A DNA stretch of 64,000 nucleotides from Candidatus Limicola stercorigallinarum (GTDB lineage: Bacteria > Actinomycetota > Coriobacteriia > Coriobacteriales > Coriobacteriaceae), in the NCBI GenBank assembly GCA_018711625.1, contig DVID01000041.1:1-64000 (forward strand), read 5' to 3'. Positions 31,025 through 61,590 of the stretch are shown here, piece by piece. The position numbers and the translations under genes were made by a program. Positions within the stretch are counted from its first letter, which is position 1; every line of letters begins with the position of its first letter. The notes beneath the pieces are model-generated. The model searched no databases, was not told the origin of the DNA, and saw only the letters and a list, made by a program, of their open reading frames with translations.

Positions 31025-31609
31025 GGTATCCTCCTTCAATCTGTGCCGCCCCGTGCCGGAGCGGGCGGCGTACGTACAGATTGCTGAGCCTGCGTAGACC
31101 GCGCAGCCCAGCATCACGGCGCACCGCATGAGGCGATGACGCCGATGCAGCGCGTCACGGCCTTGCCGCGACGCACGCGATGCTAGATGGTACCATCCAC
31201 CCCGCGCATCGCGGCCACAAGCTACAATCTCCCGCCATTTTTAACATGCGACGATGTGCAAGCCGGACGGCAATGCTTACGAGCACGGATCGATCGACAG
31301 CAGGACGGCAACTCGCTGGCGAGATACATTTTTTTGAAATTGCGGCGGAAATAAGACAGTTAGTTCAGATATGAACGATTCGGGCTATGGGCATTACGCC
31401 GCTCAATCTGCGATTTTGCATAATGCGAGGCTACCTTATGCCAAGACTCCGCATTCGTCGCAGTTTCCAACGGTTTCTGCATTGCATCTGCTTACAAGTA
31501 GGCACTGCATTGTTTTAGCGCAGAGTACCGTCGTTCATATCTGAACTAACTGCCTAAATTAAACGCTTTGCGAAGAAAAAAACCCATCTGCCGCGTCGCG
31601 GCAGCGCTT
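31025..31609. other. Intergenic stretch upstream of aspS with element C
   Basis: 585 bases between aspS and the HAD gene. The part next to aspS (31025-31200) should hold its promoter and leader; the perfect 12-base palindrome GATGGTACCATC occurs near 31186. This recalls the T-box core TGGTACC but lacks the following CGCGG, so I do not call a T-box. From 31320 the stretch is AT-rich and holds the 196-bp element C. No gene is supported. Confidence 0.5.
31357..31552. repeat. Element C: 196 bp with perfect 22-bp terminal inverted repeats
   Basis: Bases 31357-31378 (beginning CAGTTAGTTCAGATATGAAC) and 31531-31552 are exact reverse complements. The 152 bases between them are AT-richer than the genome around them and contain no ORF or transposase fragment; one inner hairpin (GCATAA..TTATGC) is seen. 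Flanks ATAAGA and CCTAAA show no target duplication. The form is that of a miniature inverted-repeat element, but it could also be a structured RNA. Confidence 0.75.
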
Positions 31610-54875: not shown

Positions 54876-55961
54876 TTATCCCAGGTGTGCAATCACAGCA
54901 TCGGTATAGGCACGCGTACCCACCGCACCTGCCGTGTCTCCGGTAAGGGCACGGCGCACGTCGGCCGTCACCTGCGTTCCCTCAGAAAGCGTAGCCGCCA
55001 CAGCGCTACGGATGGCACCGGCTGCGTCCCGCTCGCCCAGATGCTCGAGCATCATGGCGGCAGAGAGGATTTCGGCCGTGGGGTTGGCCAGGTCTTTACC
55101 TGCGATATCGGGGGCCGAACCGTGCGTTGCCTCAAACACCGCACACGTGTCGCCGATGTTTGCCCCAGGCGCCATACCAAGGCCGCCCACCAAGCCGGCG
55201 CAGAGGTCACTCACAATATCGCCGTACAGGTTGGGCAGCACGAGCACATCGAAATCGCGCGGATCAATCACCAACCCCATGCAGGTGGCGTCAACAATCT
55301 TGTCCTCAAAGGCAATATCAGGGTACGCAGCGGCAACCTCGCGCGCCACGCGCAAAAAGAGCCCGTCGGTCTCCTTCATGATGTTTGCCTTGTGCACCGC
55401 CGTCACCTTGTGCCGGCGCGCACGGCGCGCATACTCAAAGGCGTAGGTCACCACGCGGCGCGACCCCTCCTCAGAGATAGGTTTGATGGAGATGGCCGAA
55501 CCCTCGCGGAAGGTACGACCCTGTGCGCGCTCAACCAGCTGCGAAAGCTCTGCCACCTCGGCGCTGCCCGGCGCAAACTCAATCCCCGCATACAGGTCCT
55601 CGGTGTTCTCGCGCACAATGGTGAGGTCAACATTTTCGTAGCGCGACGAGGTGCCCGGCAGCGACACGCACGGGCGCACGCAGGCATAGAGGTCAAACGT
55701 CTGTCGCAACGAAACATTTACGCTGCGAAAACCCGTACCAACCGGCGTGGTGACGGGCCCCTTGATGGCAACCCCCACCGCACGCACCGCATCGAGCACG
55801 TGCTCGGGCAGCGGCGTGCCATAGGTGTCCATCACGGCCGCACCCGCGTCCACCACCTGCCAGGCAATATCCACGCCCGCGGCTGCCACCACACGGCGCA
55901 TGGCGTCGGTGATCTCGGGGCCAATGCCATCGCCGGGAATGAGCACAACGTCATGCGCCAT
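54876..55961 (-). CDS. icd: NAD-type isocitrate dehydrogenase (IDH/IPMDH family)
   Basis: 361 residues of the beta-decarboxylating dehydrogenase family. Opening VVLIPGDGIGPEI, substrate Arg residues in LRQTFDLYACVRPC, VRENTEDLYAGIE, Lys/Asp in VTAVHKANIM and the metal Asp residues in LPNLYGDIVSDL. VRENTEDLYAG is typical of short NAD-dependent isocitrate dehydrogenases rather than isopropylmalate dehydrogenases; homoisocitrate or tartrate activity is the alternative. ATG at 55961 has GAGGAG upstream. It starts four bases after the stop of the HEAT-like gene, so the three genes 57150-54876 form one operon. Confidence 0.85.
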   Translation of the reverse strand: MAHDVVLIPGDGIGPEITDAMRRVVAAAGVDIAWQVVDAGAAVMDTYGTPLPEHVLDAVRAVGVAIKGPVTTPVGTGFRSVNVSLRQTFDLYACVRPCVSLPGTSSRYENVDLTIVRENTEDLYAGIEFAPGSAEVAELSQLVERAQGRTFREGSAISIKPISEEGSRRVVTYAFEYARRARRHKVTAVHKANIMKETDGLFLRVAREVAAAYPDIAFEDKIVDATCMGLVIDPRDFDVLVLPNLYGDIVSDLCAGLVGGLGMAPGANIGDTCAVFEATHGSAPDIAGKDLANPTAEILSAAMMLEHLGERDAAGAIRSAVAATLSEGTQVTADVRRALTGDTAGAVGTRAYTDAVIAHLG

Positions 55962-55965
55962 AGCA

Positions 55966-56658
55966 TTACTCCTCGTCGTCGGTATCGCTCGTAGAGACAG
56001 TGCGCGCACGGCGCTTGGGTGCGTCGAGCTTGAACCGCTTCACCAGGTACTCGTAAATCTCGCGCGAACGCGCCTTGAGGTAGGAGCCCTTGCCGTTCTC
56101 AGCGTCGAACGCAAGGCGCCCCGCCAGCTCTTCGGCCACCTCGCCGGCAATCTTGCCCTGCGCGAACTCGTGCAGCACGCCGAGCATGTCGCGGTATTCC
56201 AAATCACCGTGATAGCACTGGATGGCCTCGTCCAAAATGGGCCAGACCTTCTTAGAGCGGTTGCGGTCGGTGCTGCCCCACAGGCAAAGCAGCCGGAAGG
56301 CCGAAAGACGAAGCGTGGAAGAAAGCTCATCAAAGAGTGCCGCCTCGGCACCCTCGAAGGCCTCGCCTACCGCCTTGGCATCAAGCGGCACCAGTAGCGA
56401 GAGCGCATCGAGCGCCTCCCAGCGCGTCTGTGCCTCGGGACGATAGAGGGCATCCACCAACTCGGGCACAAAGCCAACAACCCGCTCGGGATCGCGCTCC
56501 GCCACGAACATCACCACGCGGGCGGCAAACTGCCGGCGGCGACGGCTTGCGCTTGCAAGGTCTTCTACCAGCTCGGCCAGCGCATCCGGATTGGTTTCAA
56601 TGCGGGCCAGCTCCTGCACTTCTTCTTGAGCAAGCTCGCGCTCCTTGGAATCAGCCAT
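55966..56658 (-). CDS. Helical-repeat (HEAT-like) protein of unknown function
   Basis: 230 residues, predicted all helical, with repeating 35-40 residue units: ARIETNPDALAELVEDLASA, FAARVVMFVAERDPERVVGF, RWEALDALSLLVPLDAKAVG, LRLSAFRLLCLWGSTDRNR, and a later unit around EYRDMLGVLHEFAQGKIAGE. This is a HEAT/ARM-type scaffold for protein binding. The C-terminal 20 residues are basic, then acidic and Ser/Thr-rich. No enzymatic motif is visible. ATG at 56658 follows GAAGAGG. It lies between a membrane protein gene and isocitrate dehydrogenase with gaps of six and four bases, so it may be a partner of one of them. Family unknown to me beyond the fold. Confidence 0.7.
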   Translation of the reverse strand: MADSKERELAQEEVQELARIETNPDALAELVEDLASASRRRRQFAARVVMFVAERDPERVVGFVPELVDALYRPEAQTRWEALDALSLLVPLDAKAVGEAFEGAEAALFDELSSTLRLSAFRLLCLWGSTDRNRSKKVWPILDEAIQCYHGDLEYRDMLGVLHEFAQGKIAGEVAEELAGRLAFDAENGKGSYLKARSREIYEYLVKRFKLDAPKRRARTVSTSDTDDEE

Positions 56659-56664
56659 ATGCCT

Positions 56665-57150
56665 CTACCTCTTCTTTCGTTGTTTTGCCGGCCTGCGGGG
56701 GCGCTGCGTGCCGCCCGCAGCTGCAGAAGAATGACCAGATGCCGAGGCATCCGTATCTGTGGTAACCGAGATAACATCGGGCGCCGACGCACCTTCGCGG
56801 CGACGGCGACGACGCGCCTCGCCCACACCGCCCTTGGTGGTGTCGCGATGCGCGCGGTTGATATTGAAGAACCGGTCGATAAACGCCCACGGTCCCACCG
56901 ACTCGCCAAATCCCATCTTAAGACCGGTGATGCCACCCGCCATGAGGCCCACGGGGACCGCATAGAGAAGCGGCAGCGCCCCGAGCATCGCCGTGACAAG
57001 CATGCACACCGCGATGACGGCAACGTTAAGCCCCCAGTACTCGCGCGTGGTCACCGTGCGCTCGCCCACCGTGTTGCCCACGCTAAAGCCCACGTACACG
57101 CAGAACACAAATAGGACCACAAACGAGATGATGAATGCCGGATCGGTCAT
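56665..57150 (-). CDS. Membrane protein of unknown function with basic tail
   Basis: 161 residues. Three hydrophobic segments (about 6-26, 41-62, 64-82) are followed by GFGESVGPWAFIDRFFNIN and a long cytoplasmic tail rich in Arg, Ala, Ser and Thr, with ARRRRRREG near residue 112 and a very basic end (RPRRPAKQRKKR). No known family is recognised. ATG at 57150 has GAGGAG upstream. It begins six bases after the dehydrogenase gene stop and is followed closely by the HEAT-like gene, so the four genes from 58281 to 54876 can be one transcript. The basic tail could bind nucleic acid or the membrane surface. Confidence 0.7.
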   Translation of the reverse strand: MTDPAFIISFVVLFVFCVYVGFSVGNTVGERTVTTREYWGLNVAVIAVCMLVTAMLGALPLLYAVPVGLMAGGITGLKMGFGESVGPWAFIDRFFNINRAHRDTTKGGVGEARRRRRREGASAPDVISVTTDTDASASGHSSAAAGGTQRPRRPAKQRKKR

Positions 57151-57156
57151 ATGCGT

Positions 57157-58281
57157 TTACTCCTCGTGCGCGCAACCGCAGGTGCAGTCCTCACCCTCGT
57201 GGTGATGCCCCTCACCATGGCAGCACTCATGCTCGCCATGCCCGTGACCGTGGCCCTCGCCGTGGCAGCATTCGTGATCGCCATCGTGATGGTGGCCGCA
57301 GCCACACTCATGGTCGCCGTGGCCATGGTCGTGCCCGCAGTCGCACCCATCATCGTGCTCCTCGGTCACGCGCGACCAGTCCAAACCAGCCGCCACTGCT
57401 TCGGCCTCCTCCTGATACAGCAGGGTGATGGCCTGCGTACCCAAACGGCCACCACCGATAACGTCGAGCATGTCGTAGAGCGAAAACGCCGTGTCGGCAC
57501 CCGGGAGCGCAATCTCGCGCTCCTCTGCCTCCTGCAGCGCCAGGCTCAGGTCCTTTACAAAATGCTGCACCATAAAGCCCGGCTTCCAGTCGCCATCGAG
57601 CGCCTTGGGAGCAAGCGTCTCCATAGCACCCGAAGCGCCCGTGCCGCTCATGATCATGGAGCGCACGTCGGCGAGGTCGAGCCCCTCCTGCTGGGCAAAC
57701 GAGAGCGCGTCCGCCATGCCAACCATGCTCGATGCCAGAGCAACCTGATTGGCAAGCTTGGCCGCCTGGCCCTTGCCCGCGCCGCCAAAGCAGCAAATGC
57801 GGCTCGTGAACGTCTCGAGAATGGCGCGCACCGGCTCGATGTCACGCTCGGTTGCGCCCACAATGGCCGTGAGCGTGCCCGCGCAGGCACCCGCCTCGCC
57901 ACCCGTGACCGGGCAGTCGAATGCCATGCGGTCGGATACCTGAGCCGCACCGGCAATATCGCGCGCCAGCGACGGAGCGCTCGTGGTGAGGTCGATGAGC
58001 ACCGCGCCCGGCTTGGACGCCGTAAGCAGACCGTCTCCCGCCAGATAGAGCTCCTCGACCTCCTCCGGGAAGCCCACCATGGTAAACACCACATCGGCAT
58101 CGCGCACGGCCTCGGCCGGAGAGGCGGCCCACACGGCACCGCGCGCCACCAGGTCATCTGCCTTGCTCTTGGTGCGGTTGTACACGGTCAGCGGATAACC
58201 GGCGTCAAGGATATGCCCCGCAATGGGCGCACCCATGATGCCCGTACCAATGAATGCGATCTTCTCTTTGCGCTCTGCCAT
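57157..58281 (-). CDS. 3-hydroxyisobutyrate dehydrogenase-family enzyme with His/Cys-rich C-terminal tail
   Basis: 374 residues. Residues 1-306 are a complete beta-hydroxyacid dehydrogenase: dinucleotide-binding FIGTGIMGAPIAGHI, DCPVTGGEAGA (substrate motif), catalytic Lys in GQAAKLANQVA (normally GxxxKxxNN) and DLSLALQEA. Such enzymes oxidise 3-hydroxyisobutyrate, tartronate semialdehyde or related acids. Residues 307-374 are a tail containing 19 His and 11 Cys among 68, with ECCHGEGH twice and several CGHDHGHG-like runs. This resembles metal-storage or metallochaperone tails (HypB, UreE) and should bind Ni, Zn or Co. I know of no standard member with it. ATG at 58281 has AAAGGA upstream. 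Confidence 0.88.
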   Translation of the reverse strand: MAERKEKIAFIGTGIMGAPIAGHILDAGYPLTVYNRTKSKADDLVARGAVWAASPAEAVRDADVVFTMVGFPEEVEELYLAGDGLLTASKPGAVLIDLTTSAPSLARDIAGAAQVSDRMAFDCPVTGGEAGACAGTLTAIVGATERDIEPVRAILETFTSRICCFGGAGKGQAAKLANQVALASSMVGMADALSFAQQEGLDLADVRSMIMSGTGASGAMETLAPKALDGDWKPGFMVQHFVKDLSLALQEAEEREIALPGADTAFSLYDMLDVIGGGRLGTQAITLLYQEEAEAVAAGLDWSRVTEEHDDGCDCGHDHGHGDHECGCGHHHDGDHECCHGEGHGHGHGEHECCHGEGHHHEGEDCTCGCAHEE

Positions 58282-58346: not shown

Positions 58347-59303
58347 CTATTCTGCCCCGCGCACGCGCTTGGCTATGCGGTCGGTGAGCGAAATCTTCTC
58401 GGCGCGGTCGCGTCCCCAGAAAATCACCGCAACCATGCCCGGCCCCACATGTGCACCGATGGTCGGCCCCACCGATCCGCGAATGATGGTGGCGTCGCCT
58501 GCGCCACCCTCGCGGCGCACCGCTGCTTCGAGCCAATCGGCATCCTTCTCGGCATCCGAGGAAACGATGGTGATGGGAAGCCCCTGGTCGGGAAGGTAGT
58601 TTTCTTTGAACGACTTCACCAGCGACTTGAGCGCCTTTTTGCGCCCACGGCTCACCCCGGTAAGCGAAAGCGAGCCGGCAAGGTCAAACGAGAGATTGGC
58701 CTTGACGTCGAGCTTGCTCGAAAGCTGTGCCGCCGCAGGAGGAATGCGCCCGCCCGCCGCAAGTGAATCGAGGCTGTCGAGCGTGAAGTAGCCGTGCACG
58801 CAGGTCTTAGCCTCGTTGGCCCACGCCACCAGCTCCTCGGCCGAAAGGCCCGCCGAGCGCTGACGCACCGCCTCCAAAGCAAGCAGCTCGCCGCACGCGC
58901 ACGGCAGCGCGTTATCCACCACGTAGAGCTCAAAGTTGGGATAGGAGGCGCGCACCTGCTCGGCCGCCTGGCAGGCAAAGTCGTAGCTGGCGGAAAGCGC
59001 CGAGGTGAAGCAGAGGTACACCGTGGGCGTTCCCTCTTCGGCGCACTCGGTGAAAAACTCCAGGTAGCGGCCGAGCGAAATGGCCGAGGTGGACGCGTGC
59101 GAACCCGCGCGAATCTTGTCGTAGAACTGCTTGGGCGTAATGGATGTCCAAATGTCATCGGTATGCTCAACACCGTCGAGCATGTAGGGGAAACCCAGGA
59201 TGTCGACGTCGAGTGTCGCGGCAATCTCGGGTGTCAAGTCGGCGCAGGTATCAACCACAATGCGATAGCGCGAAGCGTGTCCGGCAGATGCTGGTGCTGT
59301 CAT
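58347..59303 (-). CDS. DegV family fatty-acid-binding protein
   Basis: 318 residues. DegV/FakB proteins bind a fatty acid and present it to the FakA kinase for phospholipid synthesis. Family marks: IVVDTCADLTPEIAATLDVDI near the start, SHASTSAISLGRYLEFF (the lipid carboxyl-binding Ser/Thr region), YLCFTSALSASYDFA, and a C-terminal GPTIGAHVGPGMVAVIFWG. ATG at 59303 has AAAGG upstream. It lies just after the HPF terminator. FakA is not in the window, so the lipid role is from the family alone. Confidence 0.9.
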   Translation of the reverse strand: MTAPASAGHASRYRIVVDTCADLTPEIAATLDVDILGFPYMLDGVEHTDDIWTSITPKQFYDKIRAGSHASTSAISLGRYLEFFTECAEEGTPTVYLCFTSALSASYDFACQAAEQVRASYPNFELYVVDNALPCACGELLALEAVRQRSAGLSAEELVAWANEAKTCVHGYFTLDSLDSLAAGGRIPPAAAQLSSKLDVKANLSFDLAGSLSLTGVSRGRKKALKSLVKSFKENYLPDQGLPITIVSSDAEKDADWLEAAVRREGGAGDATIIRGSVGPTIGAHVGPGMVAVIFWGRDRAEKISLTDRIAKRVRGAE

Positions 59304-59320
59304 CGAGATGCCTTTCATGA

Positions 59321-59384: not shown

Positions 59385-59969
59385 TTACTCGTCAAGCGTC
59401 TCAATCTTGGGCTTGATGATGCCATATCCACCATTCTTACGGTGATACACCACATTGATGAGGCCTGTGGTGGCGTTCTCAAACACATAGAAGTCGTGGC
59501 CCAGCAAATCCGTTTGAATGAGCGCCTGCTCCTCGGTCATCGGCGTGATGTCGATAACCTTCTCGCGCACCAGCAGGTCGTCTTCTTCCTCGGGGATGAG
59601 AAGGTCCGCCAGGTCTTCCACGTGCTCCACCGGAGCAACCTCTGCCGCAGAGGCTCCCTGCTGACGGTTGTCGATGACCTTGGTCTTGAACTTGCGCAGC
59701 TGACGCGTGACCTTATCGGCCGCGGAGTCAATGGCAGCATACATGTCCACGCCATGCTCGGCCACGCGAATCACCGAACCACGAGCGCGCACCGTAACCT
59801 CAACAATTGCCGGCTGAGGATTGGCGGGGTTCTTCTCATAGCGCAGCACAACGTCGGCCGTCATGGGGTCGATATCAAAGACCTTGAGCGCCGAGGCGAT
59901 CTTCTCATCAACGCGAGCACGCAGTGCATCAGTTACCGTGGTCTTACGTCCCGATACCGTGATTTCCAT
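59385..59969 (-). CDS. hpf: Ribosome hibernation promoting factor, long form
   Basis: 194 residues. The N-terminal S30AE domain (1-105) opens MEITVSGRKTTVTDALRARV and binds the decoding region of idle ribosomes. The C-terminal dimerisation domain (about 135-194) contains MTEEQALIQTDLLGHDFYVF, NATTGLINVVYHRKNGGYG and the final IIKP. Long HPF joins 70S ribosomes into 100S dimers. ATG at 59969 has TTGGAG upstream; the open frame extends upstream without homology. Single-gene unit. Confidence 0.94.
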   Translation of the reverse strand: MEITVSGRKTTVTDALRARVDEKIASALKVFDIDPMTADVVLRYEKNPANPQPAIVEVTVRARGSVIRVAEHGVDMYAAIDSAADKVTRQLRKFKTKVIDNRQQGASAAEVAPVEHVEDLADLLIPEEEDDLLVREKVIDITPMTEEQALIQTDLLGHDFYVFENATTGLINVVYHRKNGGYGIIKPKIETLDE

Positions 59970-60155
59970 ACGTGGCTCCAATCTATCCGGGGACCTTACG
60001 TATGGTAGTTGTACCCACTCAAACGATTGCTTGAGCACAAATGTTTGTTGGTCCCGTTGGCGGATAGAGTCCGCACGACCACCGAAGAGTGGGTGTTGCG
60101 TCGCGAACAATAGGTTAGGGCGGTGCCGGGACGAAAGCCCGCGGTCAACGCCCGT

Positions 60156-61169: not shown

Positions 61170-61590
61170 CTTTGACCACCTCACCGCCCTGGCTTGTACA
61201 CGCCTCGCCGGGCATATCAGACCGCCGCGCACGACGGATGATGTGCGATAATCCCCCCAGCTGACCTGGTCTTTGACCCCACACCTGCGCACTGGGACGT
61301 TTGCTCTTGCCGCCGCAGCGGCTTCACGACTTGCCCGCTCGCCCGCGGGGCGGAATTGCCCTCAAGTAAACGGGCGGTGCGACTTACCTCTAGGACGCGC
61401 CATGATCGCGCACGCGCGCACGCGCACGCTTACGTGGATCCCTTTGGCCGCGTCTGCCATGGACTAGGGCGCGCTGCGCCGGCAACCACAGCCTGGGGGG
61501 ACGCGGGAAAGTATAGCAGTTCACAGCAGGTATGCGCGACGCATACCGTAGCAAATACGTTTGAAACGTTGCGACATCGGGGGCATGCGC
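61170..61590. other. Long leader region upstream of the solute-binding lipoprotein
   Basis: 421 bases. On the minus strand a -10-like TATACT stands at 61510-61515. The palindrome GGTATGCG/CGCATACC (61529-61547) covers the expected -35 position and could be an operator. The following 340 bases up to the lipoprotein gene are GC-rich with several possible stems around 61330-61385, but I recognise no known riboswitch or T-box. No gene is supported. Confidence 0.45.

Follow-up and report, generated by a model that had tools for sequence, protein, structure and literature searches.

A His/Cys-rich C-terminal tail conserved on an NADP-type beta-hydroxyacid dehydrogenase of Coriobacteriaceae and Atopobiaceae is a candidate metal buffer

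The question raised by this locus is what a tail crowded with histidine and cysteine does at the end of a complete dehydrogenase. The gene (57157-58281, minus strand) is a complete open reading frame that runs from ATG to stop and encodes 374 amino acids, in a source genome of 1.96 Mb in 49 contigs. The window referred to below is the whole stretch of DNA that was analysed, 64,000 nucleotides in length. The parts of the gene are:

57364..58281, minus strand: dehydrogenase core, residues 1-306, beta-hydroxyacid dehydrogenase (Pfam, motifs, AlphaFold, Foldseek)
core residues 7-164, minus strand: NAD_binding_2 (Pfam)
core residues 169-286, minus strand: NAD_binding_11 (Pfam)
Lys175, Lys243-Asp244, PVTGG loop and Arg36, minus strand: core motif residues (alignment and structure match)
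57160..57363, minus strand: His/Cys-rich tail, residues 307-374, EEHDDGCDCGHDHGHGDHECGCGHHHDGDHECCHGEGHGHGHGEHECCHGEGHHHEGEDCTCGCAHEE
57157..57159, minus strand: dehydrogenase stop codon (ORF reading)

The core scores above the Pfam curated cut-offs for both of its domains (NAD_binding_2, 156.2 bits against 21; NAD_binding_11, 93.5 against 30). K175, P124-V125-x-G127-G128 and K243-D244 are invariant in an alignment of 41 sequences of relatives, Lys175 aligns with the catalytic lysine K170 of the Pyrobaculum enzyme, which is mutated (K170M) in PDB 3w6z, and by sequence comparison the catalytic residues are intact. The AlphaFold model of the core has a pLDDT of mostly 94-98, and Foldseek matched the model to 3w6z (E 9e-31, TMt 0.89) with the Rossmann plus all-helical fold. 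Arg36, in a YNRT motif, is invariant among the relatives, which we take to point to NADP(H) as the cofactor. Our confident prediction is that the core has the NADP-dependent L-serine 3-dehydrogenase/3-HIBADH fold. The protein reaches no NCBIfam equivalog cut-off; the nearest NCBIfam is tartronate semialdehyde reductase, the TIGR01505 score is 209 bits against a cut-off of 340.75, and the 3-hydroxyisobutyrate dehydrogenase equivalog TIGR01692 gives 177.9 bits against 291.6. The assignment to the 3-hydroxyisobutyrate dehydrogenase family in the first-pass annotation thus holds at the superfamily level, through NAD_binding_2 and NAD_binding_11, and fails as a statement of activity: because the equivalog cut-offs are missed, that name describes a family and not a reaction.

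The tail differs from the core in almost every respect of composition. Its 68 residues comprise 19 His, 11 Cys, 20 Asp/Glu, 16 Gly, 1 Thr and 1 Ala, with no Lys or Arg; exactly two copies of the unit ECCHGEGH are present (at residues 337 and 352), and two of CxCGH (313 and 326). Our recount agrees exactly with the His and Cys numbers and the repeat reported earlier. The core has only 2 His and 4 Cys in 306 residues, and at that rate the probability of at least 30 His/Cys in 68 residues is about 5e-33. Searched as DNA, the pattern CxCGHxH has 2 matches in the window, both within the tail, against 0.03 expected; in the source genome it has one further match, on the other strand, and the reversed control gave 2. 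A search of the source genome with the tail as query matched no gene besides the dehydrogenase, a PDB search with the tail alone returned no match, and no tandem-repeat DNA array was found at a score of at least 30. AlphaFold gives residues 312-374 a pLDDT below 50, from which the tail is predicted to be intrinsically disordered, and in the model it follows directly on the catalytic unit's C-terminal helix.

The distribution of the tail was examined across Coriobacteriales, where the enzyme is present in 161 of 299 genomes (E of at most 1e-40); the nearest relatives in the sample were Enorma phocaeensis An718 and Collinsella sp. An2. C-termini were read for 146 orthologues of the two main families, 67 from Coriobacteriaceae and 79 from Atopobiaceae, and a His/Cys tail was defined as one having at least 5 His and at least 4 Cys. 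Such a tail was found in 65 of the 67 Coriobacteriaceae species sampled (one of the others is weak and one has none) and in 55 of the 79 Atopobiaceae species (with 7 His-only, 2 weak and 15 without). The tailed groups include Collinsella, Enorma, Olsenella and relatives, and the tailed orthologues sit in the same gene neighbourhood as the dehydrogenase at 57157-58281. In deeper lineages short His-only tails occur in two orthologues (L122 and L123) and no tail in two others (L121 and L124), and the tail is absent from all seven of the homologues sampled outside Coriobacteriales. On the core tree the tail state changes at least about 7-11 times, mostly by losses within Atopobiaceae from a tailed ancestor; since the enzyme persists in several of these lineages after the tail has gone, the tail must be dispensable somewhere. 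Species differ widely in the length and arrangement of the tail, full tails keep 4-14 Cys, and the His/Cys composition is kept over both families, a combination that fits a store of ligands and not a folded site. The largest tail seen (L240, genome G224) carries 40 His and 9 Cys over a length of roughly 100 residues. A metagenome-assembled genome from rumen has two copies of the dehydrogenase locus on a single contig (CADCPM010000056.1), in opposite orientation (L068 and L069) and each 57% identical to the query; this is either a duplication or an assembly error.

A frameshift or assembly artefact, raised earlier as a possible explanation of the repeat region, was ruled out: two relatives of the same genus and nearly all Coriobacteriaceae carry the tail, and its changes are mostly synonymous. 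The latter point comes from simple pN/pS counts on protein-level alignments of 26 close-relative pairs, 24 of them with any change and not all independent, in which the pooled ratio was 0.084 for the core and 0.124 for the whole tail. Within the tail, the same 26 pairs gave 0.055 at His/Cys codons against 0.197 at the other codons, and 8 of the 26 had at least two synonymous and no amino-acid changes at the His/Cys sites. Because pN/pS is lower at the His/Cys codons, these residues are seen to be kept while the spacers between them drift, and this low ratio is the strongest evidence that selection acts on the ligands rather than on the bulk of the tail. Taken at the level of sequence, the tail is an authentic and ancient feature maintained by selection, and the proposal that a complete dehydrogenase bears a His/Cys tail of metal-ligand type stands on the same evidence: the feature is genuine, conserved, selected and of the SlyD type.

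The gene neighbourhood was also compared between genomes. The relevant genes in the window are:

54876..56009, minus strand: isocitrate/isopropylmalate dehydrogenase-family protein (Iso_dh; Pfam/NCBIfam), a neighbour in most Coriobacteriaceae; its true start is probably the ATG near 55961
55966..56658, minus strand: downstream protein 2, 230 aa, unmatched in Pfam and NCBIfam
56665..57150, minus strand: downstream protein 1, 161 aa, with an Arg-rich C-terminus and two hydrophobic stretches, unmatched in Pfam
58347..59309, minus strand: DegV-family protein, just upstream of the dehydrogenase and its most widely conserved neighbour
59385..60110, minus strand: long ribosome hibernation factor (HPF/YfiA family), a conserved neighbour

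The order ComF, binding protein, HPF, DegV, dehydrogenase, (membrane protein), unknown, (Iso_dh), unknown is kept in both families with any tail state. A single transcript for the dehydrogenase and the two downstream genes, as the first-pass annotation had it, is plausible because the downstream genes lie on the same strand only 6-7 nt apart. The further suggestion of a special link between the tail and these two proteins did not survive the comparison. Many tailed Olsenella-type genomes of the Atopobiaceae have no downstream protein 1 (the membrane protein), and its association with the tail was rejected as a rule; downstream protein 2 keeps its place close to the dehydrogenase whether or not a tail is present. 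In one orthologue (L146, genome G060) a single reading frame runs from the tail on into the membrane protein, with GAG where the sister L141 (G104) has the stop TAG, and this fusion is either natural or a sequencing error. No metal gene is among the conserved close neighbours, which include DegV, HPF and ComF, and no metal riboswitch was found within the window. Two structured RNA matches were recorded in the window: a raiA RNA, an orphan structured RNA (RF03072, 151.9 bits; 61252-61501, minus strand), lying between the ComF-like and binding-protein genes upstream of the HPF gene, and an aspS RNA motif (RF02930, 83.7 bits; 31032-31112, minus strand).

The most economical reading, to which we give a probability of about 0.5, is that the tail makes the dehydrogenase an enzyme-borne cytosolic buffer or reservoir for ions of the Zn/Ni/Co type, with metal binding deduced from the ligand content. 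An NADP-type beta-hydroxyacid dehydrogenase of Coriobacteriaceae and Atopobiaceae would have gained a disordered C-terminal metal-ligand tail working like that of SlyD, in which the CxC, CC and HxH clusters and acidic residues would serve as ligands. Each subunit could then hold several soft or borderline divalent ions, presumably Zn, Ni and Co and perhaps Cu(I) or Cd, and the enzyme would double as a metal buffer to the supposed benefit of the cell. Points against this reading are that the conserved close neighbours include no metal gene, that the window holds no metal riboswitch match, that several Atopobiaceae lineages do without the tail, and that full tails are scarcer in species having the CbiM Ni/Co importer. 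Bound metal might also alter the activity of the enzyme, by analogy with the effect of nickel on the SlyD isomerase.

Regulation of the enzyme ranks next after buffering, as a tentative possibility: the tail would sense metal or the oxidation of its CC/CxC clusters and switch the dehydrogenase on or off, with buffering secondary. The direct attachment of the tail to the catalytic unit's C-terminal helix and the retention of Cys in all full tails agree with this, and the isomerase of SlyD is reversibly inhibited by nickel (PMC7055735), but a precise switch would hardly be expected to differ so greatly in length and arrangement from species to species, or to be His-only or missing in lineages whose core is conserved. 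We think it unlikely that the tail is instead a metallothionein-like sink protecting against toxic metals (Cd, Cu, Zn, Bi). It does combine CxC and CC clusters with His, and the other recurrent CxCGHxH protein in the relatives is an ArsP_2-type 10TM heavy-metal exporter; however, no exporter lies beside the dehydrogenase gene, and the presence of ArsP_2 does not track the tail (27 of 41 fully tailed Atopobiaceae against 16 of 24 without a full tail, p 1.0). The exporter homologue, which has a long His/Cys-rich loop (CGCGHDH...), was seen in several Collinsella (L272, L273, L274 and L277) and was the only other such recurrent protein among the matches inspected. Least probable of all is a low-complexity tail with no metal function, arising from repeat slippage or acting as a solubility or stability tag. 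Low complexity, repeated units, variable length and several losses would suit it, but the synonymous change at His/Cys codons and the composition shared by Coriobacteriaceae and Atopobiaceae argue for selection on the ligands.

A link to nickel maturation had been implied by the first-pass annotation. In its specific form, with the tail supplying or storing nickel for the maturation of [NiFe]-hydrogenase in place of missing SlyD and HypB tails, we regard it as improbable, a little more so than the toxic-metal sink. In its favour, the SlyD-like FKBP of the source genome is a separate gene without a tail, the SlyD-like FKBPs read as full frames in seven genomes of Coriobacteriaceae/Atopobiaceae (this genome included) have no such tail, and none of five HypBs read, again including that of the source genome, has a His/Cys tail. 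In addition, some 13 kb upstream of the dehydrogenase, outside the window, are hypA, hypB and tatA/tatC, with hypA-hypB on the same strand, and hypB is 12-23 kb from the dehydrogenase in several other Coriobacteriaceae. The Hyp genes do not adjoin the dehydrogenase, however, and co-occurrence runs against the idea. Single families were tested in 65 Atopobiaceae, 41 fully tailed and 24 without a full tail. HypB was found in 17 of 41 against 14 of 24 (Fisher p 0.21), LarA in 9 against 13 (p 0.014), opposite to the prediction from a nickel role, and the CbiM Ni/Co importer in 4 against 17 (Fisher p 6e-7, one of four families tried), again opposite to that prediction. HypB above the cut-off is lacking in 24 of the 41 tailed species, and both HypB and LarA in 19, so the tail occurs in species that have neither. 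With kinship-aware independent pairs none of the HypB, LarA, CbiM and ArsP_2 associations was significant, the informative independent pairs for CbiM numbering no more than about 3 against 0.3. The HypB and LarA counts in Atopobiaceae thus do not show the occurrence with nickel enzymes or maturases that marks a nickel maturation factor, and from these gene counts a dedicated nickel-chaperone or maturation role is not supported. Given the relatedness of the species, the rarity of full tails where CbiM is present is only suggestive, a lead; it ill suits a simple nickel-supply role. CbiM is likewise present in G066, the one genome of Coriobacteriaceae without a tail.

Returning to the metal buffer, a speculative extension is that Coriobacteriaceae and Atopobiaceae may carry their reservoir tail on an NADP-dependent dehydrogenase instead of on SlyD or HypB, tying buffering to a redox enzyme, and may tend to shed the full Cys/His tail when CbiM is present. 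If the tail binds metal in cells, abundant human and animal gut bacteria possess an apparently undescribed enzyme-borne metal buffer. The same orthologue occurs in nature with a full tail, with a His-only tail and with the tail lost, a series in which the purpose of the tail can be tested by comparison and deletion. As a practical warning, the dehydrogenase should, by analogy with SlyD, bind Ni-NTA resin by itself.

Among known systems, the closest solved core is the NADP-dependent L-serine 3-dehydrogenase of Pyrobaculum calidifontis (3w6u, 3w6z, 3ws7, 5xvh), at 39% identity and a TM of about 0.9 by target length, although that enzyme is a 306-residue chain from a thermophilic archaeon and has no His/Cys tail. 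GarR/tartronate semialdehyde reductase and 3-HIBADH (1vpd, 3obb, 2i9p) share the family, fold and motifs, but they too are tail-less, and the dehydrogenase misses their equivalog cut-offs. No paper in the literature searched joins this dehydrogenase family with His-rich metal binding, in keeping with the earlier statement that such tails were not known on it; the kind of tail is already known, and its carrier and clade appear undescribed in the searchable literature. Low-complexity His-rich clusters of Ni/Zn ligands occur also in HypB (N-terminus), UreE (C-terminus), Hpn and Hpn-like, which differ in being a GTPase, a urease chaperone or small independent proteins linked to nickel enzymes, and in clusters that are mostly His where the dehydrogenase tail joins His with many Cys. 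Metallothionein is likewise a small stand-alone Cys-rich protein, whereas this tail is fused to a 306-residue enzyme. The nearest likeness is to SlyD, which binds up to 7 Ni, or in H. pylori Ni or Zn, and whose tail matters for hydrogenase maturation (PMC7055735). By composition and AlphaFold the dehydrogenase tail is, like that of SlyD, a predicted disordered C-terminal extension on an enzyme, rich in His, Cys, Asp/Glu and Gly; the E. coli K-12 SlyD tail has 15 His and 6 Cys in 50 residues against 19 and 11 in 68. The carriers differ, an FKBP in one case and a Rossmann dehydrogenase in the other (FKBP_C has no match in the dehydrogenase, which is thus not a SlyD metallochaperone by domain), and the dehydrogenase tail has more Cys and no HypB association. 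SlyD units such as CCGGHGHDHG nevertheless recur almost letter for letter in the tails of Olsenella-type orthologues, and, the sequence being of low complexity, convergence would be as likely an origin of the two tails as common descent.
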